Virus record (IMG/VR): IMGVR_UViG_3300005529_000087
Location: 1 to 26,428 of that record
DNA length: 26,428 nt
Source of the DNA: a virus
Direction: 5' to 3' (one strand)
Shown: positions 789-24,453 of the stretch, in pieces
How positions within the stretch are numbered: the first letter of the stretch is position 1
How the letters are laid out: each line of letters opens with the position of its first letter
The notes under the pieces: model-generated
Databases searched by the model: none
The model's input: only the letters and a program-made list of their open reading frames with translations
Told to the model about the DNA's origin: nothing
Position numbers and translations under genes: made by a program

Positions 789-2156
789 TTAGGTCGAGTG
801 GAACTTGAGGAACTTGATGCACTCGAATTGGAGCACGTCGCCGCCGGTGCGCTTGCGCGTGTAGAACACCACGTAAGGCTTGGCGGTGTACGGATCGCGG
901 AGCACGGTGATGCCGAGCCGATCGACGATCTGGTAGCCCTGCTGGAAGTCGCCGAACGCCATGGAGAGGGAATTGTCGGCGATCGCCGGCACGTCCTGAG
1001 CGATGGTGATGGGGTACTCGAGGAGAGTCTGCGGCGTGCCCTTCTGCAAGCTCGGCTCCCACAGATAGCGATTCTGCGAGTCCTTGAGCTTGCGCACCTT
1101 GGCCACCACCTCGCGGCGGGTGAGCCACTGTGCATTCTGCAGGTAGCCCGTTTTCATTTCCTGCACGATGTTGAATAGGCAGTCCGCCGAGGTGAGGTCA
1201 CCGTCCGCGCCGGTGGGGATGTACTCGAAAGTGCCCCACGCGCGCGTGGCGTCCGTCGTGGTGCTCACCGGATAGGTGAAAATGCCACGTGGCTGGCCGG
1301 CGCCGGTGCCGTTCACGAAAGCGGCATTCTCGGTGCGGGTGAGAATGTCGCTCACCTTGTTCGCGAGCCACCCCTCGATGTCGATAGCCGCATCCTCGAG
1401 GAGAGTCTGAGTCGCCTTCGGCGATGCGTATTGCTCCGCCGGGACGATTTCCCACTCGCCGAGCTGCGGCGTGCCCGTCTCGCCGCGCGATGCCGTCTCG
1501 GCCACCCAACCGCCGGTGGCGGCCTGGTCGGTGTCCTTGAGGCCCTTGAGCCGATCGCTCGAAATCGCCTGAACCGACGCGATGGAGCGAATGGGCGAGG
1601 TTTCGAAAATGCGGGTGACAATCCGGCCGGTGGTATCGGCGGGAATGACATAACCGCCATCCGGCTGCACGCCGGCGGCCAACGCCTTCTGTTCGTCGGC
1701 GTTGATCTGCTTGTCGCCGCGCGCCATGAGGCTCTTGAAAGCGGCCTTGTAATGGCCGTAGCCCTCGAGGTCCATTGCCGGCGGGACGGGCCGGCCGGCC
1801 TGGACAAAGGCGCCGGTGCGGTGAGCGTTGAAGCTCTTGAGCTCGAGCTCGAGCTTCGCGCCTTCCTCGGTGCCGGGTGCGCCGGGCCGGTTCATGCGCT
1901 TTTCGATTTCGTCGGCGCGCTTGGTGAATTCGGCGGCCACCTTGTCCATGGCGGCCTTCTTCTCCGAGAGCTCATCGAGGGTCTTGTTGATCTTGTTGAG
2001 CTTCTCCTCGGTGAGCGAGTCGCGCTTGGCGAGCGCATCCTCATTCGCCTTCTTGAATTCGGCGAAAGCCTTGCCGAGCTCCTCGGTGACCTTCTTGAAT
2101 TCCTCGGCGGTGGGCGGCGAGCCGCCGTCCTTGAATTCGATGCCGTGCGTGTGCAT
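789..2156 (-). CDS. Major capsid protein, HK97 family
   Basis: 455 aa from ATG 2156 (MHTHGIEF). This start is chosen because GAGGA sits just upstream, overlapping the end of the protease gene; a longer open frame to 2282 has an un-protein-like, Arg/Pro-rich leader. Residues about 18-85 are a strongly charged coiled coil, the delta/scaffold domain of HK97 capsids that the neighbouring protease normally removes. The rest is the HK97 fold region: GGYVIPADTTGRIVTRIFE, the P-domain, LTRTENAAFVNGTGAGQPRGI typical of the E-loop/A-domain area, and a C-terminal VFYTRKRTGGDVLQFECIKF. It forms the icosahedral shell. The order protease-capsid in the same operon is standard. Confidence 0.96.
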   Translation of the reverse strand: MHTHGIEFKDGGSPPTAEEFKKVTEELGKAFAEFKKANEDALAKRDSLTEEKLNKINKTLDELSEKKAAMDKVAAEFTKRADEIEKRMNRPGAPGTEEGAKLELELKSFNAHRTGAFVQAGRPVPPAMDLEGYGHYKAAFKSLMARGDKQINADEQKALAAGVQPDGGYVIPADTTGRIVTRIFETSPIRSIASVQAISSDRLKGLKDTDQAATGGWVAETASRGETGTPQLGEWEIVPAEQYASPKATQTLLEDAAIDIEGWLANKVSDILTRTENAAFVNGTGAGQPRGIFTYPVSTTTDATRAWGTFEYIPTGADGDLTSADCLFNIVQEMKTGYLQNAQWLTRREVVAKVRKLKDSQNRYLWEPSLQKGTPQTLLEYPITIAQDVPAIADNSLSMAFGDFQQGYQIVDRLGITVLRDPYTAKPYVVFYTRKRTGGDVLQFECIKFLKFHST

Positions 2157-2164
2157 TGAAGTCC

Positions 2165-2860
2165 TCACTTGAAAGTGTTGCGGATGGTTTGGGCAAGCTC
2201 GGCAACCGCGCCGAGCTCCACGCTCCCCCCGCCAGCGTCGCGCATGGCCAGGAAGGATTTGAAGCCCTGGTTGATGATGCACCGGGCCTCAGAGCGGCTA
2301 TACCCAGCGTCATGCGTGAGTAGCCGCTCAAACTCGCGAATCGCCTCGGCCTCGCTCTTCACGTTGGCGATTTGCGCCTTCGGATTCATAGGGCGAGTGA
2401 CTATCGAGGCTTCAAAGAGGTGAACCTTTTTGAGCGTGCGCCGCGGCTCATGCGGTTGCGTGCGCACGCTCCACTCCTTCGGCATATAGCCGATCGACAT
2501 ACCGGAGATAGCCGGCCGCGGCTTCATCTTGAGGAGCTGGTACACGTCGCGGCCGCGCGTGGTTGGCGCGAGCTTGCCCTCGACATGGAGGCCCTTATCG
2601 TCCTCTTTCATATCGGTCCACACGCCGATGGGGGTTTGGTCCTCGGCGGTGCCCATGAAGCCGCCGCCGTGCTGCAGAAGCATCGCCGGCCATTGGCCGG
2701 TGCTCTTCGCTTCCTGCAATGTGTCCTTGAAAGCGCCCGGCGCGATCATGTCGCCGCCGAGGTCGACATTGCCGAACGTGGCGGCATGGCCCGAGAACGT
2801 CATGTCGTTCTCATCGCCGGCAAACTTCACCTCGCCGAGCCGTTCAAAGAAGTGCTGCAT
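2165..2860 (-). CDS. Prohead maturation protease, HK97 gp4 / S78 family
   Basis: 231 aa serine protease that cleaves the capsid scaffold domain during head maturation. Family signatures are present: GHAATFGNVDLGGDMIAPGAF near residues 24-44, the LLQHG motif with likely catalytic His64, SGMSIGY with likely catalytic Ser122, and LFEASIVTRPMNP with acidic Glu150 at the usual place. The start at 2860 has GGAG 8 nt upstream, within the last codons of the portal gene; only 3 nt separate the portal stop and this ATG, suggesting coupled translation. The C-terminal about 60 residues are a variable tail. Length fits the family. Confidence 0.95.
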   Translation of the reverse strand: MQHFFERLGEVKFAGDENDMTFSGHAATFGNVDLGGDMIAPGAFKDTLQEAKSTGQWPAMLLQHGGGFMGTAEDQTPIGVWTDMKEDDKGLHVEGKLAPTTRGRDVYQLLKMKPRPAISGMSIGYMPKEWSVRTQPHEPRRTLKKVHLFEASIVTRPMNPKAQIANVKSEAEAIREFERLLTHDAGYSRSEARCIINQGFKSFLAMRDAGGGSVELGAVAELAQTIRNTFK

Positions 2861-2863
2861 GGT

Positions 2864-4120
2864 TCATGCTCCGGGTTGAGGTTCCGCCGAGCTCGCCACC
2901 GGCGGCTTGGTGCCGTCCACGGTGTTGAGAGGCATGAGCGGGACGTCGAGGCCGCCAATCGGGTTGAGCTCTTCGAAGCCGCGCGCCTCATTGCGCGTTA
3001 GCCAACCGCCGGTGATGCCGGCGTTGTAGTAGGCGGCTCGCGTCGCCGGCGCCCCGCGCAAGAGCTCGGTATCCGTGAATTTCGAGTAAAGGCCGCCGGT
3101 GGTGCGCTCCTCGAGGGTGAGGAGCGAGGTGTCGATCGCCTTCTCAATCCGGCGATGCCATGGCCGCGCCGTGTAAACCGCATGCGCCAGGAACATTTGC
3201 TCGGCGCTCGCATAAGTTGAATTCTTGTCGTAGTGGCCCACCATGATCGGCAAGACGCCCATGGCGCGGCAAATCTCCTCAATCTGGAAACGCCGAGTCT
3301 CGAGGTGTTGAGCGTCCACGCCGCTCATTTGCATTTGCGTGAACTTGGCGTCCCGATCGAGCACCAATGGCTTGCTCGAGTTGTGCAAGCCGCTGACATA
3401 CGACTCGAGCCACGCGGTGAGCTTCTTGTGTTGCTCCTCGGTGAGCGTGCCGGTGATCGAGTACAGGCCGGACACGTTGGCGCCGTTGCGGTGAAGCCTG
3501 GCGTGGGCTTCTTCGGTGGCCAGGCCGAGGCCGATGGCCTCGCGCGCAAGCCGCACAATCTCACTCGAAAACCACCCGGACCAATTCGGGTGCGCACGGA
3601 TGTGCCAGATTTGCGCCTGAGAGAACACTTGCGAAGGGCCGCCCATCGGCGGCGTCACGCGATACTCGAGCGAATAATCCGGCTTGCGCGTCACCATGAC
3701 TGTCTGAGGCTCGAAAGGGATGAGCTCGACAAGGCGGCCGCGCACGTAATTCTTGAAAACGTAGGCGTTTCGCACCAACGCCAAATGCGTGCCGATTTGG
3801 TCGCGGAATTCGAGAGCGTCTTGCCAGTCATTCGGCTTGCCGTCGAAGAGCTCATATAGCGGATGGTCCGTTGCCTCCTCGCGGTTGCCGTTTTTGGTCA
3901 TCCGGTAAATCTTGAGCGGGATGGTCGAGAGCGACTCGGCGATCACCCGAGCGCACGCGAGCACCGTGGTCACCTCGAGCGCGGTGGCATAGTTGACGCG
4001 GGCGCCTGACTTAACCTCGGGCGGCCCGTAGATTTCGCGCAAGAGGTTGAGAGCGTCATCGCCGAGGGCCTTGGCCTGAGGCTGGCCGCCGCGGCGAAAT
4101 AGGCGTCCGAAGAGACTCAT
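2864..4120 (-). CDS. Portal protein, HK97 family
   Basis: 418 aa. Forms the dodecameric ring at one capsid vertex through which DNA is packaged and to which the tail attaches. Recognisable portal features are VTTVLACARVIAESLSTIPLK (residues about 50-70), HPLYELFDGKPN, LALVRNAYVFK, HIRAHPN, and the stem/wing region RRFQIEEICRAMGVLPIMVGH followed by NSTYASAEQMFLAHAVYTARPWHRRIE. The C-terminal Gly/Pro tail SSAEPQPGA is flexible. ATG 4120 has GGAG about 8 nt upstream and follows the terminase stop by 14 nt. Confidence 0.96.
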   Translation of the reverse strand: MSLFGRLFRRGGQPQAKALGDDALNLLREIYGPPEVKSGARVNYATALEVTTVLACARVIAESLSTIPLKIYRMTKNGNREEATDHPLYELFDGKPNDWQDALEFRDQIGTHLALVRNAYVFKNYVRGRLVELIPFEPQTVMVTRKPDYSLEYRVTPPMGGPSQVFSQAQIWHIRAHPNWSGWFSSEIVRLAREAIGLGLATEEAHARLHRNGANVSGLYSITGTLTEEQHKKLTAWLESYVSGLHNSSKPLVLDRDAKFTQMQMSGVDAQHLETRRFQIEEICRAMGVLPIMVGHYDKNSTYASAEQMFLAHAVYTARPWHRRIEKAIDTSLLTLEERTTGGLYSKFTDTELLRGAPATRAAYYNAGITGGWLTRNEARGFEELNPIGGLDVPLMPLNTVDGTKPPVASSAEPQPGA

Positions 4121-4134
4121 TCAATGGCTCCGCG

Positions 4135-6006
4135 TTAGGCCGCCGCTGCGGTTTCCCAAAATGATTTGCCTTGCGCCGGCGGGTTCATCGCCATGAGCGC
4201 CGTGGCATTGAAGCTCGCCATGAGCGGGTCGATTTTCGCGGTGCCGGCGGCTTGCTTGGTGATGGTCACCGCGTTGCCTCTTTGCTCGGCCTTCGCGTTG
4301 CTCACACACCACGCCATCATGGGTTGGCCACAGTGCCGCTCAACGCCGTCCGCGAGATCCCGCTCCATCGTCTTGATGGCGCCGTTGAGCTTCCACCCCT
4401 GCGAAATGCCCACCACCCGGTCACCCTCGATGCCGGCGTTATTCGCCGCGGTGACTATCGCGCCCACGCCGGCCGGGTCCACGCCGAGCTTCCACAAGAG
4501 CCCGCTATCGTTCACTCGGCGAAAGATGGCCTCGAGCTCCTCCGCGTCCTGGCCTGGCCGGCTGGTGATGGTCATATCGCCCGCGGCGGCGAAATCCCTG
4601 AAACGCGGCGCCTCGGATTTGCGCCGCTCGAGCACCTCGGGTCGCGCCCATGCGTGATGCCAAGAGAGGGTGCGCTTGGTGACGCTATCGCGGCCTTTCA
4701 GCGAGAGGCCGAGCAAGTCATCTAGGCCGCCGCCATCGGCGCCCATCACCACCACCTCACTCCGCGCCAGGATGGACTCGAACGTGAGGCCGGGCTCGGC
4801 CGCGGCTTCCCAATGATCGGCGCCGGCCCAACGGTTGGCGCGGAGGCGCATGCCGATTTCAACATTGAGGTGTTTGGCCAGGAAGAGCGCGAGGCCCTCT
4901 TTCGGCCCGCGCTTTTCCTCCTCGAGCTTGTCGGCGAGCCACTCTTGCCGCACCGAGCGGCCGAGATTCGGGTTGGTGATGTAGAAATTTTCAGGCTTGA
5001 GGTATGGCCGGCCCTCGTCCTCGAGCATCGCCGGCGGGAATTCATAGAGCACCGGCAATTTTTTGCGGTCGATTATGCCGCCGTCCCTCACCTCGCGGAA
5101 ATAATCGAGCTTCGATTTGAATACGCCGGCCGGCGGCTCATCCGATTGCGTCGAGAGGTAGATCACGAAGCCCTCGGGCCTCGAGACAAGTCCGCCGGTC
5201 GCTTCCTTGAGCATCGCGTCGGCGTTCGCGCGCTTGCCGAAGAGCCAAAGCTCATCGACCAAGACAAAGGCCGCCTTCTTGCCGCTCACCGTATCGCTAT
5301 CGGCCGCCACCACCTTGAGGAATGCGTTGGTGGTGCGGTGCGTAATCTCCCTGAGGTTGGCGTTGACGTGGAAGAGCGCCGAGAGCTCCGGGTCGGCCTC
5401 GACCATGCCGGCCGCCGGCGTGAATGAGTTGTCCGCAACCTCTTTGGTGGGCGCCAGGATGAGCGCCTCATTGTCATAGCGCCAGTTTCGGCAAAGCGCC
5501 GTCACCATGATGCCGGCGGCCAAGGTGCTCTTGGTGTTCTTCTTGGCGATGAGGAGAAAAAACTCCTCAATCAACCGCGTGGCCGTTTCAGGATTGAGCG
5601 CGCCGAAGATGGCGGCCACGAAATCGAACACCCATTGAGGCGCGCACTCGCCGAAGGTGGGTTTGCCGGACAAGTCGACCACGCGAAGCGACTTGAATAC
5701 GCTCAACGCCGCCTCGGCCTCGGCCGGGAAGAGTGGCCCGAAAGGGATGAGCGACCGGCGCTCGAGGATTCGGCGCTCCCAATCGCGGCACGCCGTCGAC
5801 CACTCGGGTGCGGCTAGTTGAGTAGTGGTTTCGGCGGCGCCGGCGGCGCGAATTTGCCCGTTACCTTCTCCGCCGCCTGTTGCTGCGCTTGCTTCTTGCC
5901 GAGCTTCGGCGCCACTGGCACCTCCGGCGAGCTCGCCGGCGCCTTGCTTGCGCGCTCCTCGAGCTGATTTGCGGCCCGCGCCGCGCTTCGCTGGTCGCTT
6001 AGCCAT
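4135..6006 (-). CDS. terL: Terminase large subunit (start uncertain)
   Basis: Packaging motor ATPase plus nuclease. From the conserved WSTACRDWERRI onward the protein is colinear with phage large terminases of the Terminase_1 type: Walker-A-like IAKKNTKST, Walker B FVLVDELW, a coupling-type YLSTQSDEPPAG, then nuclease-domain acids in GADGGGLDDLLGLS and LGVDPAGVG. The usual Gly in the P-loop (KKNGKS) is Thr here. The start is a problem: between the conserved N-terminus (about position 5802) and ATG 6006 there is no in-frame ATG, GTG or TTG. A start at 6006 gives 623 aa but adds an Arg/Ala/Gly-rich 68-residue leader read out of frame over the terS gene, with no good ribosome site. A rare start (for example ATT near 5855 behind AGAAGG) or ribosomal frameshifting from terS are alternatives. 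Confidence 0.92.
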   Translation of the reverse strand: MAKRPAKRGAGRKSARGARKQGAGELAGGASGAEARQEASAATGGGEGNGQIRAAGAAETTTQLAAPEWSTACRDWERRILERRSLIPFGPLFPAEAEAALSVFKSLRVVDLSGKPTFGECAPQWVFDFVAAIFGALNPETATRLIEEFFLLIAKKNTKSTLAAGIMVTALCRNWRYDNEALILAPTKEVADNSFTPAAGMVEADPELSALFHVNANLREITHRTTNAFLKVVAADSDTVSGKKAAFVLVDELWLFGKRANADAMLKEATGGLVSRPEGFVIYLSTQSDEPPAGVFKSKLDYFREVRDGGIIDRKKLPVLYEFPPAMLEDEGRPYLKPENFYITNPNLGRSVRQEWLADKLEEEKRGPKEGLALFLAKHLNVEIGMRLRANRWAGADHWEAAAEPGLTFESILARSEVVVMGADGGGLDDLLGLSLKGRDSVTKRTLSWHHAWARPEVLERRKSEAPRFRDFAAAGDMTITSRPGQDAEELEAIFRRVNDSGLLWKLGVDPAGVGAIVTAANNAGIEGDRVVGISQGWKLNGAIKTMERDLADGVERHCGQPMMAWCVSNAKAEQRGNAVTITKQAAGTAKIDPLMASFNATALMAMNPPAQGKSFWETAAAA

Positions 6007-6242
6007 TTGATCGCCGCAACGTTGCCCTTCTTGGCGGCCTTGTCGGCGTACTCGAGGAGCTCGGCGCGCTTGATATCGGCGCCGTGCTCGAGCTCGGCCG
6101 GGAAAGCCGCCCTTAAAGTTTCGTGATCGGTGCCGATCGAGCGCGCAATCCGCTCGATGCTCCACCCATCGGCCCTCAAGCGCATCACCTTCTCGCGCTG
6201 AGCCGGCGTTGGCTTGAATTTAGGACGGCCGCGCCGTGCCAT
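5814..6242 (-). CDS. terS: Terminase small subunit
   Basis: 142 aa from ATG 6242 (MARRGRPKFKPT), with GGAGAG 6 nt upstream; an open frame to 6344 lacks such a site. Residues about 12-45 form a helix-turn-helix (REKVMRLRADGWSIERIARSIGTDHETLRAAF), the DNA-recognition part of small terminases. A helical oligomerisation segment follows (ADIKRAELLEYADKAAKKG) and then an Ala/Pro/Gln-rich tail. It recognises the packaging site and loads the large subunit. It is directly upstream of and overlaps the large-subunit frame, and follows the HNH gene, the usual order in cos-type HK97-like phages. Confidence 0.85.
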   Translation of the reverse strand: MARRGRPKFKPTPAQREKVMRLRADGWSIERIARSIGTDHETLRAAFPAELEHGADIKRAELLEYADKAAKKGNVAAIKWLSDQRSAARAANQLEERASKAPASSPEVPVAPKLGKKQAQQQAAEKVTGKFAPPAPPKPLLN

Positions 6243-6252
6243 TTTCGACTCT

Positions 6253-6372: not shown

Positions 6373-6696
6373 CTATCGCAAATTGCGCTCGGCCCTGGCC
6401 GCGGCCGTCTTGCGCGTGTGGCTCGAGCCGCACCGCGCCATGCCGTTACTCACGTCGAAGGGTGCGCCGCCATCCTTGAGCTCAACGATGTGGTCCGCGA
6501 ATAGCCGTTGGCCGGGGAAGTGCTGAGCGGTGCAAGCCGGGTCTTGGCACATCCCGCCCGCGCGCTGGATTACCTCGGCCCTCCATTTCGCATATTCGGC
6601 GGAGTGGTAAATCGGGTCGGCAACCTTCGGCGGTGGTGCTGCGATCGAGGTATCGAGAGTGGCCACGCGCGGCCGAAGTGTCGCGAGCCTGGCCAA
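6373..6696 (-). CDS. HNH endonuclease (packaging-associated)
   Basis: 107 aa. Zinc-ribbon HNH fold: Cys50 and Cys55 (CQDPAC), DHIVELKDGG with Asp68-His69, Asn84 and Cys89 in SNGMARC, and His93 with Lys96 in SSHTRKT. Small HNH proteins beside the terminase are needed for specific cos cleavage and head morphogenesis in HK97-type phages. The start is TTG 6696 (MARLATLRPR, matching the usual N-terminus of such proteins) with no Shine-Dalgarno. It begins 1 nt after the stop of a 25-aa membrane peptide gene, so translation is probably by re-initiation. Confidence 0.9.
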   Translation of the reverse strand: MARLATLRPRVATLDTSIAAPPPKVADPIYHSAEYAKWRAEVIQRAGGMCQDPACTAQHFPGQRLFADHIVELKDGGAPFDVSNGMARCGSSHTRKTAAARAERNLR

Positions 6697-6697
6697 G

Positions 6698-6775
6698 TTA
6701 GAACACGCCGAGGCTATGGAGCGCGAACGCCAACAGTGTGAGCGAGGTTGCTATGTGCACGATTGCTTCTGCCAT
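6698..6775 (-). CDS. 25-aa membrane peptide leading the late operon
   Basis: ATG 6775 opens a peptide with one hydrophobic stretch, HIATSLTLLAFALHSLGVF, long enough to span or enter a membrane. Its stop codon is 1 nt from the TTG start of the HNH gene, which lacks its own ribosome site; this coupling is the main reason to believe it is translated. It is the first frame after the late promoter and terminator. Function unknown; it may be just a leader peptide. Confidence 0.4.
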   Translation of the reverse strand: MAEAIVHIATSLTLLAFALHSLGVF

Positions 6776-6787
6776 GGTGCACCAATG

Positions 6788-6819
6788 AAAACGCCCGCTC
6801 GGCGGGATGCCGGCGGGCG
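6788..6819 (-). terminator. Intrinsic terminator just after late promoter (tR'-like)
   Basis: On the minus strand a stem of CGCCCGC (comp. of 6813-6819) with GCGGGCG (comp. of 6792-6798) is extended by an inner CGGC/GCCG pair around a 5-nt loop and followed directly by TTTTC. It lies some 10-40 nt downstream of the expected late-promoter start site and upstream of the packaging genes. Confidence 0.7.
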
Positions 6820-6837
6820 CAAGTCCTAACAAGCGCA

Positions 6838-6868
6838 TATATAGCCTCTTAGCCGCCGCAAATGTCAA
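6838..6868 (-). promoter_or_regulatory. Late promoter candidate (PR'-like)
   Basis: Minus strand: consensus -35 TTGACA (6863-6868) and -10 TATATA (6838-6843), spacer 19 bp, or overlapping -10 hexamers at 17-18 bp. The -35 box overlaps the stop codon of the Q-position gene. The start site is expected near 6830, immediately before the terminator at 6788-6819. Confidence 0.65.
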
Positions 6869-7593
6869 TAGTCGAAATGGGCGACAAGTGCCGATAATCC
6901 GGCCCTCAACCGGCTCATGCCATGGGCTCGCGAATCGCTGCCGCGAATTCCGCGCATTAGCGCCCAATCGCTGGCCGCGCCATCCATGATAACCACGTGC
7001 ATCACCACGCCTTTCGAGCGGTACGGCACGGCGCTCATCGCCGCCAGATAGTCCACCGTTGCGCTCACCCGTCCGGTGAACATGCGGTCGGGATTGGCCG
7101 AGCTCTGCACTACCACCGGCGAATAGCTCCCGATCATCTTGGGATTGAGGCCGGCCTCGCACCATAGTTGCCAAAGACGGTTGGCCGCGCGCCATTCCTT
7201 CGGCTCGATGTGGCCTCCGGTGTAGTAGCGATCAATCATTCTCTGTGGGGTGATGCGCTTGGGGAAACCGGACTCCTTGGTGATGCGGAGCTTTTGCGGC
7301 GCGACTTCAACCCGGTGACCATGCTGCACCGCATAGGGTGATGGCGAATAGCGGCCGCCTTCATCCGGGCCAGGATCGGCAAGCCGCTTGGCATCGCGTT
7401 GGCGCTTGGCATCGGTGAGCTCGAGCCGCTTGCGCACGTATTCCATTCGCTCGGCGCTCGGTGCCTCGAGCTCGAGGCCGCGTGCGCTATTCCACATCTT
7501 TGGGCCGGGCGGTGCGTTCTCATCGAGCTCGGCAATTTGCTCCTCGAGCGAACGTTCAAACGCCGCGCCTCGAGCTTTACGGCGCTTGCCCAT
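6865..7593 (-). CDS. Putative late-transcription regulator (Q position)
   Basis: 242 aa, last gene of the minus-strand early operon. Basic N-terminus (MGKRRKARGAAFERSLEEQ), a middle charged region ERMEYVRKRLELTDAKRQRDAK, and a C-terminal half with PQRMIDRYYTGGHIEPKEW, AANRLWQLWCEAGL and a final MSRLRAGLSALVAHFDY. The 'Y..G.I....W.AA.RL...W..AGL' arrangement recalls DUF6456-like domains, but I hold this loosely. No classical Q motif or zinc finger is seen. The argument for function is position: the gene ends inside the -35 box of a strong promoter that is followed at once by an intrinsic terminator and then the packaging genes, as Q precedes PR'/tR' in lambda. Late antiterminator or activator is an inference. 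ATG 7593 directly follows the preceding stop. Confidence 0.8.
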   Translation of the reverse strand: MGKRRKARGAAFERSLEEQIAELDENAPPGPKMWNSARGLELEAPSAERMEYVRKRLELTDAKRQRDAKRLADPGPDEGGRYSPSPYAVQHGHRVEVAPQKLRITKESGFPKRITPQRMIDRYYTGGHIEPKEWRAANRLWQLWCEAGLNPKMIGSYSPVVVQSSANPDRMFTGRVSATVDYLAAMSAVPYRSKGVVMHVVIMDGAASDWALMRGIRGSDSRAHGMSRLRAGLSALVAHFDY

Positions 7594-14458: not shown

Positions 14459-14700
14459 GCCGCCCTTCCGAGTTTTGGGCGCTTTGTCTCCGCGCGCCGC
14501 GTGACGCCCGCTGAGGCGCGTTCCGAGTCCATATAGGCGCGTATGCGATCGAGATTTGCCACGGTGAGGCCGCCGCCCTGCCGGACGCGCTCGACAAATT
14601 TCCCGTCGTTCATCGCGCGCCGGCCAAATGTCGATTCGGGAATTCGAAACTCAGAGCAAAAGGCGGCGATTTCGGCGAGGAGAGTCTCGGTGGTCGACAT
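14455..14700 (-). CDS. Cro-position HTH regulator, 81 aa
   Basis: First gene of the minus early operon, divergent from the CI gene as cro is from cI. The sequence ETLLAEIAAFCSEFRIPESTFGRRAMNDGKFVERVRQGGGLTVANLDRIRAYMDSE contains a helix-turn-helix-like 'fc..f.Ip.stFgr.a.nD..fv.rlr.G' pattern that I know from alphaproteobacterial phage and chromosomal small regulators. It probably binds in the divergent control region and represses CI. ATG 14700 has no Shine-Dalgarno and lies only 8 nt below the -10 box, so the transcript should be leaderless. Confidence 0.75.
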   Translation of the reverse strand: MSTTETLLAEIAAFCSEFRIPESTFGRRAMNDGKFVERVRQGGGLTVANLDRIRAYMDSERASAGVTRRAETKRPKLGRAA

Positions 14701-14708
14701 GGCGGGGG

Positions 14709-14737
14709 AAGTTAAGGGGACATATCCCCATGGTCAA
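14709..14737 (-). promoter_or_regulatory. Early promoter toward Cro-position operon
   Basis: Minus strand -35 TTGACC (14732-14737), 17-bp spacer, -10 TAACTT (14709-14714). Operator 14716-14729 fills the spacer and operator 14738-14751 abuts the -35 box. The architecture is nearly the same as the promoter at 15961-15989. Confidence 0.75.
14716..14729. promoter_or_regulatory. CI operator, Cro-side site 1
   Basis: GGGGACATATCCCC, fits GGGGA-N4-TCCCC. It covers the spacer of the minus early promoter, so occupancy should block polymerase. Repressor assignment is by location beside the cI gene and recurrence at the second early promoter. Confidence 0.75.
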
Positions 14738-14751
14738 GGGGAAACATCCCT
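14738..14751. promoter_or_regulatory. CI operator, Cro-side site 2
   Basis: GGGGAAACATCCCT, one change from GGGGA-N4-TCCCC. It starts 22 bp (two helical turns) from site 1 and touches the -35 box. It also lies upstream of the likely cI start region (weak -10 TATTAG at 14751-14756), so it may mediate autoregulation. Confidence 0.7.
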
Positions 14752-14768
14752 ATTAGCCACAGGGGCCG

Positions 14769-14791
14769 CATGTGGAAGCCTCTTCCACATG
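14769..14791 (+). promoter_or_regulatory. Perfect palindrome over cI start codon
   Basis: Arms CATGTGGAAG (14769-14778) and CTTCCACATG (14782-14791), 3-bp spacer, no mismatch. The 5' arm contains the likely cI ribosome site (GGAAG) and the 3' arm contains the cI ATG (14789-14791). As RNA it would hide both; as DNA it could be an operator for the Cro-position protein. Confidence 0.6.
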
Positions 14792-15478
14792 AATGAGCGG
14801 CGGCAAAAACTAAATCGGGAGCTCCGGCGGCGCATGGAGGCGCTCAGCGTCTCCGCCAAGAAACTGAGCCTCGACGCTGGCCTCAGCGAAACGGCCGTCA
14901 AAGATATCCTCAGCGGCAAATCGGAAAATCCCAAGCACGATACGCTCGCCAAAATAGCGAAGCGCCTTGCATGCACCGTCGCCGATCTCATGGGCGAGCG
15001 CCCGGCCGCTCGGCCGAGAGCGGTGAGCGAGGGGGGCGACACCATCGCCATCAATGAGCTCGACGTGCACGCCGCCGCCGGCATCGCCGGCGACGATGGC
15101 GAGGCAATCCTCGCTTCGGATGAGCCTGGCCTTGTGACTGGCGTGCACACTTACCCGGCCGCCAGCTTCCGCGAAGCCTACGGCATCAATCCGGGCAATA
15201 TCCGAATTATCCCGGTGCGCGGAAATTCGATGGAGCCAGAATTGTGGTCCGGGCAACGGGTCATGGTCGACGTCGACGATCGCTCGCCGTCGCCGCCCGG
15301 CATTTTTGTGGTATGGGACGGCCTCGGCTTGGTGCTGAAATACGTTGAAGTTATTGCGAATTCCGAGCCGGTGCGCGTTCGCATTTCGAGCGCACATCAA
15401 GCGTTCAAGCCTTACGAGCGCAACCTCGACGAAGCCTACATCAACGGCCGCGTCGTCGGAGTCTGGAAGCGGCTTTAG
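14789..15478 (+). CDS. CI-type repressor, HTH plus S24 peptidase
   Basis: 229 aa from ATG 14789 (MNERRQKLNRELRRR); the open frame continues upstream to 14543 but that part overlaps the divergent gene and control region. N-terminal XRE-type HTH, residues about 8-68 (MEALSVSAKKLSLDAGLSETAVKDILSGK). A linker with candidate self-cleavage Ala97-Gly98 follows (DVHAAAGIAG). The C-terminal LexA/S24 domain has catalytic Ser147 in VRGNSMEPEL and Lys184 in GLVLKYVE. It maintains lysogeny by binding the GGGGA-N4-TCCCC operators at both early promoters and is inactivated by RecA-stimulated self-cleavage on DNA damage (family knowledge). Convergent stop overlap with the lipoprotein gene. Confidence 0.93.
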   Translation: MNERRQKLNRELRRRMEALSVSAKKLSLDAGLSETAVKDILSGKSENPKHDTLAKIAKRLACTVADLMGERPAARPRAVSEGGDTIAINELDVHAAAGIAGDDGEAILASDEPGLVTGVHTYPAASFREAYGINPGNIRIIPVRGNSMEPELWSGQRVMVDVDDRSPSPPGIFVVWDGLGLVLKYVEVIANSEPVRVRISSAHQAFKPYERNLDEAYINGRVVGVWKRL

Positions 15479-18011: not shown

Positions 18012-19352
18012 ATGACCACTCAAGACAAGCCGCTCAAGATTGTCTCGCTTCAAGCCGAGAACGTGAAAAAGCTGGTGGCCGTGCGCATCGACCCGCGCGG
18101 CAATCTTGTGCAGATCACGGGCAAGAATGGCGCCGGCAAAACCTCGGTGCTCGACTCCATTTGGTGGGTGCTCGCCGGCGCCGGCTCGGTGCAAAAGGCG
18201 CCGATCCGCAAGGGCCAGGAGCGCGCCACCATCAAGATGGACATGGGCGAGCTCATCGCCACGCGCACCTTTGCGCGCAAAGAGGATGGCGGCTTTACCA
18301 CGTCCATCGCGGTGGAGAACGCCGAAGGCGCGCGCTTCCCGAGCCCGCAAAAGCTCCTCGACTCGTTGCTCGGCTCGCTCACCTTCGACCCGCTCGAGTT
18401 TGCGCGGATGAAGCCCAAAGACCAATTCGACACGCTCAAGCGCTTTGTGCCTGGCGTGGATTTCGCGGCGATCGACAACGCCAATCGCGGCGACTTTGCC
18501 AAGCGCACCGAGGTGAACCGGCGCGCGAAGGAAGCCGAAACGCGCGCCGGCGCCATCGCCATGCCGCCCATCACGCCGGCGGAGCGCATTGATGAGAGCG
18601 CGCTTGTCGATGAGCTCGCGGCCGTGGGCGAGCACAACGCCGAGCTCGAGCGGCGGAAGGAACGGCGCCAGCAAGTGGCCGAGGAAGCCAAGGCCAAGCG
18701 CCTCAAGGCCGAGGAATACCGGACGAAGGCGGCCGAGCTCCGCCAGCAGGCCGAGGCTGCAGAGAACACCGCCGCGGGGCTCGATGAGGCCGCCGGCACC
18801 CTCGAGGATAAACTCAGCACCGCCGAGGCGTTGCCCGAGCCGAAGGATGCGGCCGAAGTGCGCCGGCGCCTCGAGGCGGCCAAGCAAAGCAACGCGGTGC
18901 TCGACCACATCGCCCGCCGCACCGAGCTCCTCGAGGAAGCCCGCAAGCTCGAGGCCGAGGCCAAGACCATCACCGAGCGGATGGAGGCCCGCGAGCTCGA
19001 GAAGCGCGAGGCCATCGCCAAAGCGGAGCTCCCGGTGCCCGGCATCGGCTTCGGCGAGGAGAGCATCACGCTCAATAGCGTGCCATTCGAGCAAGCCTCG
19101 AGCGCCGAGCAACTCCGCGCCTCGCTGGCGATCGCCATGGCCAGCAACCCGCGGCTTCGCGTCATTCGCGTGCGCGAGGGCTCGCTACTCGATGAGGACG
19201 GTTACCGCATCGTCGCCGAAATGGCGGCCGAGCGGGACTTTCAGGTATGGGTCGAGCAAGTCGACTCCTCCGGCAAGGTCGGTTTCGTGCTCGAGGACGG
19301 CCAAGTGCGCCGCGCGCCCGACGCTGAGCCTGCGCAACAGGCGGCGGAGTAG
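18012..19352 (+). CDS. SbcC/RecN-like coiled-coil ATPase
   Basis: 446 aa. N-terminal beta strands LKIVSLQAENVKKLVAVRI and Walker A GKNGAGKTS (residues 37-45) as in SMC/Rad50/RecF ATPases. Coiled coil from about 195 to 350 (RRKERRQQVAEEAKAKRLKAEEYRTKAAELRQQ...). C-terminal lobe with SSAEQLRASLAIAMASNP, a degenerate ABC signature, then REGSLLDEDG as likely Walker B, and FQVWVEQV. Half-size compared with SbcC (no long arm, no zinc hook seen). It probably assists the adjacent exonuclease in end processing. Start ATG 18012 lacks a clear ribosome site; the 39-nt gap carries the shared leader motif. Confidence 0.88.
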   Translation: MTTQDKPLKIVSLQAENVKKLVAVRIDPRGNLVQITGKNGAGKTSVLDSIWWVLAGAGSVQKAPIRKGQERATIKMDMGELIATRTFARKEDGGFTTSIAVENAEGARFPSPQKLLDSLLGSLTFDPLEFARMKPKDQFDTLKRFVPGVDFAAIDNANRGDFAKRTEVNRRAKEAETRAGAIAMPPITPAERIDESALVDELAAVGEHNAELERRKERRQQVAEEAKAKRLKAEEYRTKAAELRQQAEAAENTAAGLDEAAGTLEDKLSTAEALPEPKDAAEVRRRLEAAKQSNAVLDHIARRTELLEEARKLEAEAKTITERMEARELEKREAIAKAELPVPGIGFGEESITLNSVPFEQASSAEQLRASLAIAMASNPRLRVIRVREGSLLDEDGYRIVAEMAAERDFQVWVEQVDSSGKVGFVLEDGQVRRAPDAEPAQQAAE

Positions 19353-20990: not shown

Positions 20991-21199
20991 ACCTCGCCGA
21001 GAAACTCGCGCGGGAAATCCGCCGAGTCACCGAGCTTCGCGAGCTCTACCGCGAAGCCGGCAAGGAGCCTCGCGTCAACGTCGCCCCGGCCATGATGATG
21101 ATGGATATGGCGCTTGAAGCCGCGTGCATCGCCGCCGGCAAGGATGATGCGGTCGAGCAACTCGCCGCGCTCAAGGAACTTGAGGGCTTCGAGAAATGA
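20987..21199 (+). CDS. Helical hypothetical protein, 70 aa
   Basis: GTG start at 20987 overlapping the previous stop. Two helices LAEKLAREIRRVTELRELYREAGKE and a Met-rich PAMMMMDMALEAACIAAGKDDAVEQLAALKELEGFE. No metal-site or catalytic pattern. Coupled to the DUF5131 gene by ATGA. Function unknown. Confidence 0.65.
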   Translation: MNLAEKLAREIRRVTELRELYREAGKEPRVNVAPAMMMMDMALEAACIAAGKDDAVEQLAALKELEGFEK

Positions 21200-22215
21200 G
21201 CACCCGCATCGAATGGACGGACGAAACGTGGAATCCGACAGTTGGGTGCTCCATCGTCTCGCCCGGCTGCACCAACTGCTATGCGATGAAGATGGCCCAC
21301 CGCGTCGGGCCGAACTTCCCGCACTATGCCGGCCTCACCAGGATGACCAAAGGCGGCCCGGTGTGGACCGGCAACGTGTCGACCGCGCCCGACCGCGCAT
21401 TCCTCAAGCCGCTGCGCTGGCGCGACCCGCGCCGCATATTCGTCAACTCGATGAGCGACCTTTTCCATGAAGGCATAGCCGACGAAATCGTCGATCGCGT
21501 GTTCGCGGTAATCGCGCTCGCCCCGCACCACACCTATCAGATACTCACCAAGCGCGCCGAGCGGATGCACGTCTATATGACCGCGCCCGATCGGCGCGAG
21601 AAGATCATGGCGGCGGCGGTGAACATCCAAGCTCAGGGCCGCAAGCGCCTGCCGGACTATGCGCGCTCCACGATGATAACCGCCATGGCTTGGCCGCTAC
21701 CCAACGTGTGGCTCGGCGTATCGGCGGAGGATCAATCGCGCGCCAACGAGCGCATCCCGCTCTTGCTCGAAACGCCAGCGGCGGTCCGGTGGGTGAGCGC
21801 CGAGCCGTTGCTCGGGCGGCTGGTGCTCGACGGCCGAAACATGACGGGCGATGAAACCTATTGGGACTTTTTGCGCGGCGAGCGGGGTGCCTCCGTCCAG
21901 CACGTCGCCATCCAACCGGAGGAAACCGCGCGGCTCAGTTGGGTGGTCGCCGGCGGAGAGAGCGGGCCGGGCTCGAGGCCCGCGCATCCCGATTGGTTCC
22001 GCTCGCTCCGAAACCAGTGCGCGGCGGCGGGTGTTCCGTTCTTCTTCAAACAGTGGGGCGATTGGGGACCCGCCGAGCTCATCCACGATATTGAAGGCAA
22101 CAGGTTCCGAGAAATGGAGGAGTACGTCGAGCCGACTAACGGCATGTATCGGCTCGGCAAGCGCGCCGCCGGCAACCTTCTCGACGGCGCGAAGCATGAG
22201 GCGTGGCCGGCATGA
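21196..22215 (+). CDS. DUF5131 (phage Gp37/Gp68) family protein
   Basis: 339 aa. Family N-terminus IEWTDETWNPTVGCSIVSPGCTNCYA with Cys18, Cys25 and Cys28 (C-x6-C-x2-C), reminiscent of radical-SAM cluster ligands. Further family blocks are RIFVNSMSDLFHEGI, HTYQILTKRAERM, NVWLGVSAED, RWVSAEPLLG and VVAGGESGPGSRPAHPDWFRSLRNQC, then FFKQWGDW. It looks full length. Biochemical activity is not established; the iron-sulfur/radical-SAM relation is the common guess. Found in many phages, here inside a DNA-processing operon. Confidence 0.92.
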   Translation: MSTRIEWTDETWNPTVGCSIVSPGCTNCYAMKMAHRVGPNFPHYAGLTRMTKGGPVWTGNVSTAPDRAFLKPLRWRDPRRIFVNSMSDLFHEGIADEIVDRVFAVIALAPHHTYQILTKRAERMHVYMTAPDRREKIMAAAVNIQAQGRKRLPDYARSTMITAMAWPLPNVWLGVSAEDQSRANERIPLLLETPAAVRWVSAEPLLGRLVLDGRNMTGDETYWDFLRGERGASVQHVAIQPEETARLSWVVAGGESGPGSRPAHPDWFRSLRNQCAAAGVPFFFKQWGDWGPAELIHDIEGNRFREMEEYVEPTNGMYRLGKRAAGNLLDGAKHEAWPA

Positions 22216-22532: not shown

Positions 22533-22732
22533 CCGACATGGAGCTCACCATCGTGGCCGAACGGAGCCGCGCCCATCGCGCGCTCGCCAAGGTCGCCCCC
22601 GATCGGCTCCGCGAAATCGTCGCGGCCGTCGAATCCGTCGCCATCGCCGAAGCCGTCGACCAAAGAGCGGCTCGAGCGTTTGAGCGCATCGCCGTCCACC
22701 AAGTCGCCCTCTCGCTTGGAGTGAAAGCGTGA
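22529..22732 (+). CDS. Small helical protein, 67 aa, before HerA-like gene
   Basis: MTDMELTIVAERSRAHRALAKVAPDRL..., all helix with many Ala/Arg/Glu. ATGA upstream and GTGA downstream overlaps tie it to the HerA-like ATPase, so it may be a partner. No motif recognised. Confidence 0.62.
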   Translation: MTDMELTIVAERSRAHRALAKVAPDRLREIVAAVESVAIAEAVDQRAARAFERIAVHQVALSLGVKA

Positions 22733-24453
22733 AATACCCTCTTCCCGACCCTGTTCTCTCGCGTCACATCGCCTTCCTCGGCAAGACGGGGAGCGGCAAA
22801 ACCACCTCCGCGAAAGGCGCGGTCGAGCACGTGTTGCGCACCGATCCCACCGCGCGGGTTTGCGTGCTCGACCCGATCAAATCGGATTGGTGGGGCCTCA
22901 CCTCGAGCGCCAACGGCAAGAGCGCCGGCTTTCCGTTTCAGATACTTGGCGGCCCGCACGGCCACGTGCCGCTTCACGCCTCGGCCGGCAAGGCGGTGGG
23001 CGAGCTGGTAGGCCGCGGCGCTCTCCCGCTCTCCATCATCGACATGGCTGATTTCGGGATGGGCGGCCTTCAACAGTTTTTCAACGACTTCGCGCCGGCG
23101 CTCATGCGCTCCATGACCGGCGTGCTTTATCTAGTGCTCGAGGAGGCGCACGAATTCGCGCCGAAGGAACGGGCCGGCATCGCCAATGAGAATATGTCGG
23201 TTTACTTCGCGAAGAAGCTCGCCACCGCCGGCCGCTCCAAAGGTATCCGGCTCATCCTTGTGACGCAGCGCACGCAACAATTGCACAACGCGCTCCTCGG
23301 CTCTTGTGACACCGTGGTGGCACATCGCCTCACCGCGCCGGCCGATCAAGGCCCGGTGAAGGAATGGCTTAAAGCGCATTTCGACAAGGCCACTTTTGAG
23401 AAGGTGGCCGACTCGCTCGCCAAGCTCCGCACCGGCACCGGCTTTGTGTGCTCGAGCGAAATGGAAGTGGCCGGCGAGTCGGAATTCCCCAAGCTCACGA
23501 CTTTCGACAATTCCGCCACGCCCACCGGCAACGGCGGCCGCCTCGAGGTGAAAACCGCGCCGGTCGATCGCGAGAAGCTCCGCGCCATCATGGGTGACGC
23601 TGTGAAAGAGGCCGAGGCCAACGACGTGCCGGCGCTCAAGAAGCGCATCCGCGAGCTCGAGCTCGAGGTGGCCAGGAAGCCGGCGCCGGCGGCCATCGAC
23701 CCGGCGGCGCTCGAGGCTGAGCGGCAACGCGGCTTCCGCGAGGGCCGTGATGCCGGTGCGAACGAAATGAGCCGGCAATGGGGGAAGCGTGTTGACGCCT
23801 TCCGCGAGGCGCACGTGGCGGCAATGTCCGGCCTGGTCGAGCCGATGCCGTTGCTTCCGCCGCTCGCGCCGGCGCCGATCGTCTCGAGCTCCACGAAACC
23901 GGCGAGCGCGGCCTCGAGAATTCCGCCGGCGGCCGCCTCTCCCGCCGCGCCTCAAGCGGTGGCCGATGGCCTGAGCGGCCCTCAACAATCCATCCTCGAT
24001 GCGCTCGCGTGGCTCGAGAGCGTAGGCGTGCGTCCGGCCGATAAGGCCCGCGTGGCCTGGCTCGCCAACGTCTCGCCGAATTCCTCCGGCTTTCAGAACA
24101 ATATCGGCCGGCTCCGCAAGGTGCTCGGCCTTGTGGCCTATCCCACCGGCGGCAAGGTCGAGCTCACCGACAAGGGCCGCGCGCTGGCCAACCGGCCGCA
24201 AACGCCGCCGGACAACGCCACGCTTCACGCCGGCATCAAGGCCAAGCTGCCCGGCCCGCAATGGGCCATCTTCGAGGCGCTCATTGGCGTCTATCCAACC
24301 TCGATATCACGCGAGCAACTCGCCACCGGCCTCGGCGTTTCGGTGGACTCGAGCGGTTACCAAAACAACCTCGGCTCGCTCCGCTCCATCGGCCTTATCG
24401 ACTATCCCGAGCGCGGCATGGTGCGCGCGCTCCCGGTGCTCTTTGTGGAGTAG
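22729..24453 (+). CDS. HerA/DUF87-like ATPase with duplicated winged helix
   Basis: 574 aa, GTG start at 22729. Walker A GKTGSGKTT (18-26), VCVLDPIKSDWWG, Walker B VLYLVLEEAHE (132-142), and RSKGIRLILVTQRTQQLHNALLGSCDTVVAHRL typical of HerA/FtsK-like hexameric translocases. A charged coil (about 295-365) and a Pro/Ala linker follow. The C-terminus has two related winged-helix units at about 415-487 and 507-567, both with GPQ..I..AL and SSGxQNNxGxLRxxGLxxYP. It probably pumps or opens DNA; HerA normally works with a NurA nuclease, here possibly the PD-(D/E)XK enzyme encoded 5 kb upstream (inference). Confidence 0.87.
   Translation: MKYPLPDPVLSRHIAFLGKTGSGKTTSAKGAVEHVLRTDPTARVCVLDPIKSDWWGLTSSANGKSAGFPFQILGGPHGHVPLHASAGKAVGELVGRGALPLSIIDMADFGMGGLQQFFNDFAPALMRSMTGVLYLVLEEAHEFAPKERAGIANENMSVYFAKKLATAGRSKGIRLILVTQRTQQLHNALLGSCDTVVAHRLTAPADQGPVKEWLKAHFDKATFEKVADSLAKLRTGTGFVCSSEMEVAGESEFPKLTTFDNSATPTGNGGRLEVKTAPVDREKLRAIMGDAVKEAEANDVPALKKRIRELELEVARKPAPAAIDPAALEAERQRGFREGRDAGANEMSRQWGKRVDAFREAHVAAMSGLVEPMPLLPPLAPAPIVSSSTKPASAASRIPPAAASPAAPQAVADGLSGPQQSILDALAWLESVGVRPADKARVAWLANVSPNSSGFQNNIGRLRKVLGLVAYPTGGKVELTDKGRALANRPQTPPDNATLHAGIKAKLPGPQWAIFEALIGVYPTSISREQLATGLGVSVDSSGYQNNLGSLRSIGLIDYPERGMVRALPVLFVE

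Follow-up and report, generated by a model that had tools for sequence, protein, structure and literature searches.

A compact predicted promoter–terminator unit at the 3′ end of the gene for a probable Q/GafZ-like late antiterminator in a virus genome

Results

Gene order around the 242-aa gene

The window analysed here, a 26,428-base IMG/VR virus record with a GC content of 64.8%, carries the 242-aa gene, a promoter, a hairpin and the HNH, terminase, portal, protease and capsid genes on the minus strand, all in one direction (Table 1). The 3′ end of the minus-strand early operon consists of a DUF1376 primosomal-type gene and small ORFs followed by the 242-aa gene, which is probably translationally coupled to the preceding ORF because the two share a TGAATG junction. 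The interval from the 242-aa gene to the HNH gene starts with TTGACA, placed on the stop codon; an A/T-rich −10 tract comes next, then GTTAG, a hairpin with its T-run and finally a 25-aa ORF. The stop codon of this small ORF lies 1 nt ahead of the TTG start of the HNH gene; its product matched no family in domain and profile searches and may act as a leader or as a small membrane peptide. The original prediction had set the terminator ahead of the packaging genes, which agrees with its position, although the 25-aa ORF (6775–6698) and the HNH gene (6696–6373) intervene before terminase. The named phages among the relatives infect alphaproteobacteria (Rhizobium, Aurantimonas and Bradyrhizobium), and the related viruses are apparently viruses of this class.

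Table 1. Coordinates of the features discussed (window positions unless a related locus is named)
Feature	Position	Strand	Basis or remark
HerA/DUF87-like ATPase	22729–24453	+	opposite early arm
DUF5131 protein	21196–22215	+	opposite early arm
SMC/RecF-like ATPase	18012–19352	+	opposite early arm
CI-like repressor with S24 domain	14543–15478	+	
242-aa Q-position protein, proposed Q/GafZ-like late antiterminator	6865–7593	−	profile and model comparison
−35 element TTGACA	6863–6868	−	contains the TGA stop (6865–6867) of the 242-aa gene
−10 tract CTATATA	6838–6844	−	aligned with CATATT of L071, equal spacing
GTTAG, predicted transcription start (~G6830)	6826–6830	−	distance kept in L071
Predicted intrinsic terminator (hairpin 6819–6792, T-run 6791–6788)	6788–6819	−	folding; sequence prediction
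25-aa hydrophobic ORF MAEAIVHIATSLTLLAFALHSLGVF	6698–6775	−	first ORF past the terminator
HNH endonuclease gene	6373–6696	−	first recognised late gene
Probable terminase small subunit (HTH)	5814–6248	−	weak matches and position ahead of TerL
Terminase large subunit	4135–6027	−	within the operon beyond the terminator
Portal, prohead protease and major capsid protein genes	789–4120	−	same late direction
NusG/RfaH-type protein of L087	4184–4786		directly ahead of promoter–hairpin–HNH
NusG/RfaH-type protein of L113	1425–2324		directly ahead of promoter–hairpin–HNH
NusG/RfaH-type protein of L122	1562–2290		directly ahead of promoter–hairpin–HNH

Predicted promoter and terminator

The anticipated TTGACA and TATATA boxes, the first of them on the stop codon of the 242-aa gene, were confirmed at 6868–6863 and 6843–6838. 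Two −10 registers can be read: TATATA (6843–6838), with a 19-nt spacer and 4/6 matches to TATAAT, and CTATAT (6844–6839), with an 18-nt spacer. CTATAT is the −10 hexamer of the Sinorhizobium meliloti/rhizobial promoter consensus CTTGAC-N17-CTATAT (PMC2873474). TTGACA occurs twice in the window, counting both strands, and a −10-like tract follows at a suitable distance only for the copy on the stop codon. A sigma-70 scan restricted to spacers of 16–18 nt found no promoter here because the spacer is 18–19 nt and the −10 is weak. The description of the promoter as strong was thus not borne out, and with such a spacer and a −10 matching TATAAT at no more than 4/6 positions, the basal promoter may be weak.

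The hairpin CGCCCGCCGGCATCCCGCCGAGCGGGCG is followed by TTTTCATT; its stem has a folding energy of −22.6 kcal/mol (z −2.4 for 61 nt), and 6819–6788 is the most stable hairpin-plus-T site of the minus strand. The RNA from the predicted start to the terminator would be ~43 nt long, in line with the stem and T-run foreseen within about 40 nt of the start. Rfam gave no match.

Conservation in the nearest relative

Searches of GenBank phages, plasmids, IMG/VR and GTDB genomes revealed no close relative of the 242-aa protein, and none of the TerL neighbours L002–L070 has a relative of it. The nearest relative, L071, was reached via its HNH neighbour and encodes a homologue that is 49% identical. L071 retains TATTGACATT and an A/T-rich −10 tract, keeps TTGACA and GTTAG 38 nt apart as in the window, and has an equivalent hairpin followed by TTTCATTGGTGC, with rebuilt arms. 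When the spacers of the window and L071 are compared, only the −35, the −10 and GTTAG are conserved and the remaining letters differ; CATT past the stop codon is common to both. The 25-aa ORF is missing in L071, whose HNH gene has an ATG start shortly past the T-run. Judged from these sequences, the conservation of the unit is beyond chance. The hairpin is likewise retained despite changed arms in L073, L072, L100 and L181, as in L071. Folding six hairpins to a consensus worked poorly (6 pairs), apparently since their stems were out of register in the alignment, and each hairpin was folded singly instead.

Promoter and hairpin travel together upstream of HNH genes

With the HNH protein as an anchor, 75 distinct upstream regions, including that of the window, were compared. 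A strict hairpin (≤ −13 kcal/mol plus a T-run, with the stem starting 10–135 nt ahead of HNH) was present on the coding strand in 24 of the 75 and on the opposite strand in 9, the mean of dinucleotide shuffles being 3.15; as 51 loci are without one, the promoter–hairpin layout is not universal. A search for perfect-stem hairpins (13/74 loci) was too strict, and folding was used in its place. TTGAC lies 20–75 nt ahead of the stem at 18 of the 24 hairpin loci (shuffle mean 2.5, maximum 8 in 500 rounds). Of the loci without a hairpin, just 4 of 41 contain TTGAC in the region, and the promoter thus goes hand in hand with the terminator. The distance from TTGAC to the stem is mostly 46–62 nt, which places the RNA start roughly 10–25 nt before the hairpin.

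The promoter–hairpin unit is found 3′ of a phrog_9306 gene in the named phages RR1-A and AmM-1, and in AmM-1 the −35 also overlaps the stop codon of that gene. In L075 the unit lies 3′ of a DUF6456 gene, and in Bradyrhizobium phage ppBeUSDA76-2 the hairpin is 16 nt past a phrog_21451 gene. No hairpin was found past the phrog_21451 gene of L179, and the strong GC inverted repeat of L076 lacks a T-run. A second TTGAC occurs 17–21 nt past the first in L084, L153, L089, L074, L104, L148 and L087, so that their −10 region contains TTGAC; the repeated motif may be a binding repeat for the protein encoded just upstream.

Unrelated families occupy the slot

The position directly before the promoter–hairpin–HNH arrangement, here called the slot, is filled by families that are unrelated to each other: phrog_21451 (the window, L071 and L072), DUF6456 (L076 and L075/L078), DUF6362/phrog_6836 (L079), phrog_9306 (L084, L089, L104 and L136, and by tblastn RR1-A and AmM-1) and NusG-type antiterminators (PF02357, phrog_6386 ‘transcription antiterminator’; L087, L113 and L122), with which the slot proteins of L124, L125 and L130 cluster. 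The slot protein of L090 weakly matches Phage_antitermQ. The position of the NusG/RfaH-type proteins suggests late control by NusG paralogues in these three phage contigs. The replacement of one protein by a non-homologous one at a slot beside the promoter–terminator, where one family consists of recognised antiterminators, constitutes the strongest genomic argument for antitermination, although an argument by analogy of this kind is not a proof. The DUF6362-like loci L080 and L085 have no hairpin, so their slot proteins may be activators rather than antiterminators; L079, with a clear DUF6362 protein, does have one.

Distant relationship of the 242-aa protein to DUF6456 and phrog_21451

In a Pfam search at E up to 1, Phage_antitermQ (PF06530) and other models were unmatched, in keeping with the expectation that the 242-aa protein has no familiar Q motif. 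The sole listing was a weak one, DUF6456 (PF20057), with 14.6 bits and an E value of 0.037 over model positions 24–134 of 136; as this score is under the curated cut-off of 26.3 bits, we call the protein a relative rather than a member of DUF6456. NCBIfam was uninformative, and the protein matched neither the NusG N-terminal nor the KOW domain (hhalign 0.2%).

Profile comparison by hhalign aligned the combined window and L071 sequences with phrog_21451 over residues 80–242 (probability 64%, E 6.5e-5) and with DUF6456 over residues 120–240 (58%, E 9.8e-5), and phrog_21451 with DUF6456 at 96%; against five other Q-slot families all probabilities were below 3%. L072, also phrog_21451, gave no direct alignment with the window and L071 sequences (0.3%). 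In a one-genome search of the window, the phrog_21451 profile found the 242-aa gene at E 4e-5. Among 14 control genomes, phrog_21451 and DUF6456 both matched only, at the genome level, Caulobacter vibrioides, the organism of GafZ. On these profiles, with hhalign probabilities that are moderate, the 242-aa protein belongs to the wider DUF6456/phrog_21451 (GafZ-like) superfamily as a distant relative. A literature search, mostly of papers available without subscription, met DUF6456 only in two papers, each dealing with gene transfer agents (GTAs), and antitermination by GafZ in a single study, and found no earlier phage link.

Modelled fold

Within the structure model of the 242-aa protein, confidence is confined to parts of residues 118–242 and is low in the N-terminal half. 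A sequence search of solved structures returned nothing for this protein, and Foldseek alone gave no match with E < 0.4. In a structure comparison of the model, every entry with Z > 5 was a sigma region 4 or a Q-type antiterminator. The sigma region 4 matches cover residues ~165–242 (about the last 70). Phage 21 Q (Q21, 6p1b) matched with Z 6.3 over 104 residues (~127–242) and AlpA (7xya) with Z 5.1 over 94 residues within the same stretch, and the model of the DUF6456 phage protein of L076 had Q21 as all five of its best matches (Z 6.9–7.4 over 103–106 residues). These Z values are modest; at less than 8 they may stem from a shared overall arrangement, and the two models were built on the same seven very diverged sequences. 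In the 242-aa model, a low-confidence loop (~147–167) separates the first helix from the long one and would lie about where the ring loop of a Q-type protein is expected (PMC9371919).

Discussion

Taken together, the anatomy of the locus, its conservation, the NusG-type company in the slot, the DUF6456 profiles and the likeness of the model to Q21 and AlpA give good support to Q-type late control by the 242-aa protein, as originally predicted. We consider it likely that the locus switches on late genes in the manner of lambda Q and that the 242-aa protein is a Q/GafZ-like late antiterminator. RNA polymerase would start near 6830, constitutively or nearly so, and would by default stop ~43 nt on at the hairpin, so that the HNH, terminase, portal and capsid genes would not be expressed. 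At a late stage of induction, the 242-aa protein, produced from the early operon, would bind within the promoter via its sigma-region-4-like helix-turn-helix and load onto RNA polymerase at the side where the RNA leaves; the polymerase so modified would pass the terminator into the late operon.

The closest known counterparts by profile are regulators of GTAs. In Rhodobacter capsulatus, homologs of GafA are annotated as DUF6456, the C-terminal 162 aa of GafA bind the RcGTA promoter across the −10, the −35 and the transcription start site, and GafA contacts the RNA polymerase omega subunit (PMC9638019). Caulobacter GafZ is homologous to the C-terminal part of GafA; Tran and Le showed that it associates with transcription of the entire GTA cluster and lets the polymerase pass terGTA and rrnB T1, and that antitermination depends on an element between the −10 and the −35; GafY is presumed necessary in Caulobacter because the −35 is degenerate, and the authors suggested that GafA may act as an antiterminator as well (PMC11150451). 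The 242-aa protein shares with GafZ and GafA the distant profile relationship over residues 120–240, a sigma-like HTH and a late (packaging/capsid) operon governed from one promoter. Unlike theirs, its gene is phage-borne and directly upstream of its presumed promoter, and the terminator lies ~12 nt past +1 here but past the first gene in the GafZ system. The spacer, read by eye, shows no obvious inverted repeat of the sort found at the GafZ site of Caulobacter, and, in contrast to the GafZ system, no DnaA-type HTH or GafY-like partner was found in the window; together with the perfect −35, the lack of such a partner fits a promoter that needs no activator.

With the Q systems of phage 21, lambda and 82 the locus has in common the position of the gene and a late promoter followed by a terminator, and with phage 21 Q possibly also the fold, to judge from the model. 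It differs from them in that its −35 box lies inside the regulator gene, and no sequence similarity between the 242-aa protein and the three Q proteins was detected. The lambda 6S RNA is ~194 nt long, and the leader here is much shorter. Pseudomonas aeruginosa AlpA is an antiterminator that recognises a promoter-internal element with an intrinsic terminator downstream (PMC9371919); it resembles the 242-aa protein in the fold match but serves chromosomal lysis control and has no sequence similarity that we found. The NusG-type phage antiterminators (phrog_6386) in the same slot of L087, L113, L122 and their relatives are an unrelated family, analogues rather than homologues. To call the 242-aa protein a new type of antiterminator, as was first proposed, therefore goes too far: in the best reading of the profiles and models, it would be a divergent phage branch of the existing GafZ/DUF6456 kind with an unusually compact layout.

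The main rival, which we regard as unlikely, is that the 242-aa protein activates the late promoter in the way proposed for GafA, by recruiting RNA polymerase, with a hairpin that only ends early transcripts arriving from upstream and is overcome by activator-driven strength. The DUF6456 annotation of GafA homologs and the promoter and omega contacts of GafA (PMC9638019) speak for such a role, and a sigma-region-4-like fold suits promoter binding. Yet a hairpin downstream of the promoter would stop the late transcript itself, and promoter and hairpin nevertheless co-occur; moreover, GafZ, the homolog of that very part of GafA, antiterminates, NusG-type antiterminators occupy the same slot, and the perfect −35 has no GafY-like partner in the window. 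More improbable still is a reading in which the hairpin just terminates the early operon in the ordinary way, the promoter-like boxes arise in part as a by-product of the conserved C-terminal Tyr and stop codons, and late control lies elsewhere. It is true that TAT-TGA supplies the TTGA of the −35, that terminators are common past the last gene of an operon and that the scan with 16–18 nt spacers saw no promoter, but a by-product would not account for CATT past the stop, the 38-nt spacing, the A/T tract and GTTAG being kept in L071 despite the changed spacer, for the sevenfold enrichment of TTGAC before the hairpin across loci with unrelated C-termini, or for the near absence of TTGACA from the rest of the window.

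Rather than a terminator, the inverted repeat might be a processed or protective 5′ RNA stem, since hairpins are able to shield the 5′ ends of RNA, or else a DNA operator; we give this very little credence. The GafZ site of Caulobacter is likewise a GC-rich inverted repeat (PMC11150451), but it lies between the −10 and the −35 and the repeat here lies past +1. The T-rich tail after the stem, and stem letters that change while each sequence still folds, also point to a terminator.

Late control in temperate phages of alphaproteobacteria is little described, and the compact promoter–terminator layout belongs to a recurrent and apparently undescribed pattern in phages of this class. For a broader proposal we see the chances as evenly balanced: alphaproteobacterial temperate phages would share an interchangeable late-control cassette, pairing any one of a set of unrelated antiterminators (DUF6456/phrog_21451, phrog_9306, DUF6362-like or NusG-like) with a compact promoter–terminator that overlaps or abuts the 3′ end of the gene, and the DUF6456 branch would have the Q21 fold, so that GafA and GafZ, the master regulators of GTAs, would be domesticated phage Q proteins. 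If antitermination holds, ‘hypothetical protein’ families in the Q position could be named as antiterminators, all open to testing by a single reporter design. The origin of GafA and GafZ from phage Q proteins would become directly testable, including the antitermination by GafA suggested by others (PMC11150451), and the layout, as read from sequence, would link these viruses to the regulators of GTAs.

Two related phages carry DnaA-type genes nearby. In phiLM21 (L095), gp34, labelled a transcription antiterminator, lies 88 nt ahead of HNH, and no promoter–hairpin unit was found there; at 4399–5390 of L095 the DnaA-type HTH gene gp33 precedes gp34, an order that recalls the GafY–GafZ pair. In AmM-1, a gene for a DnaA C-terminal domain is located two genes ahead of the slot protein.
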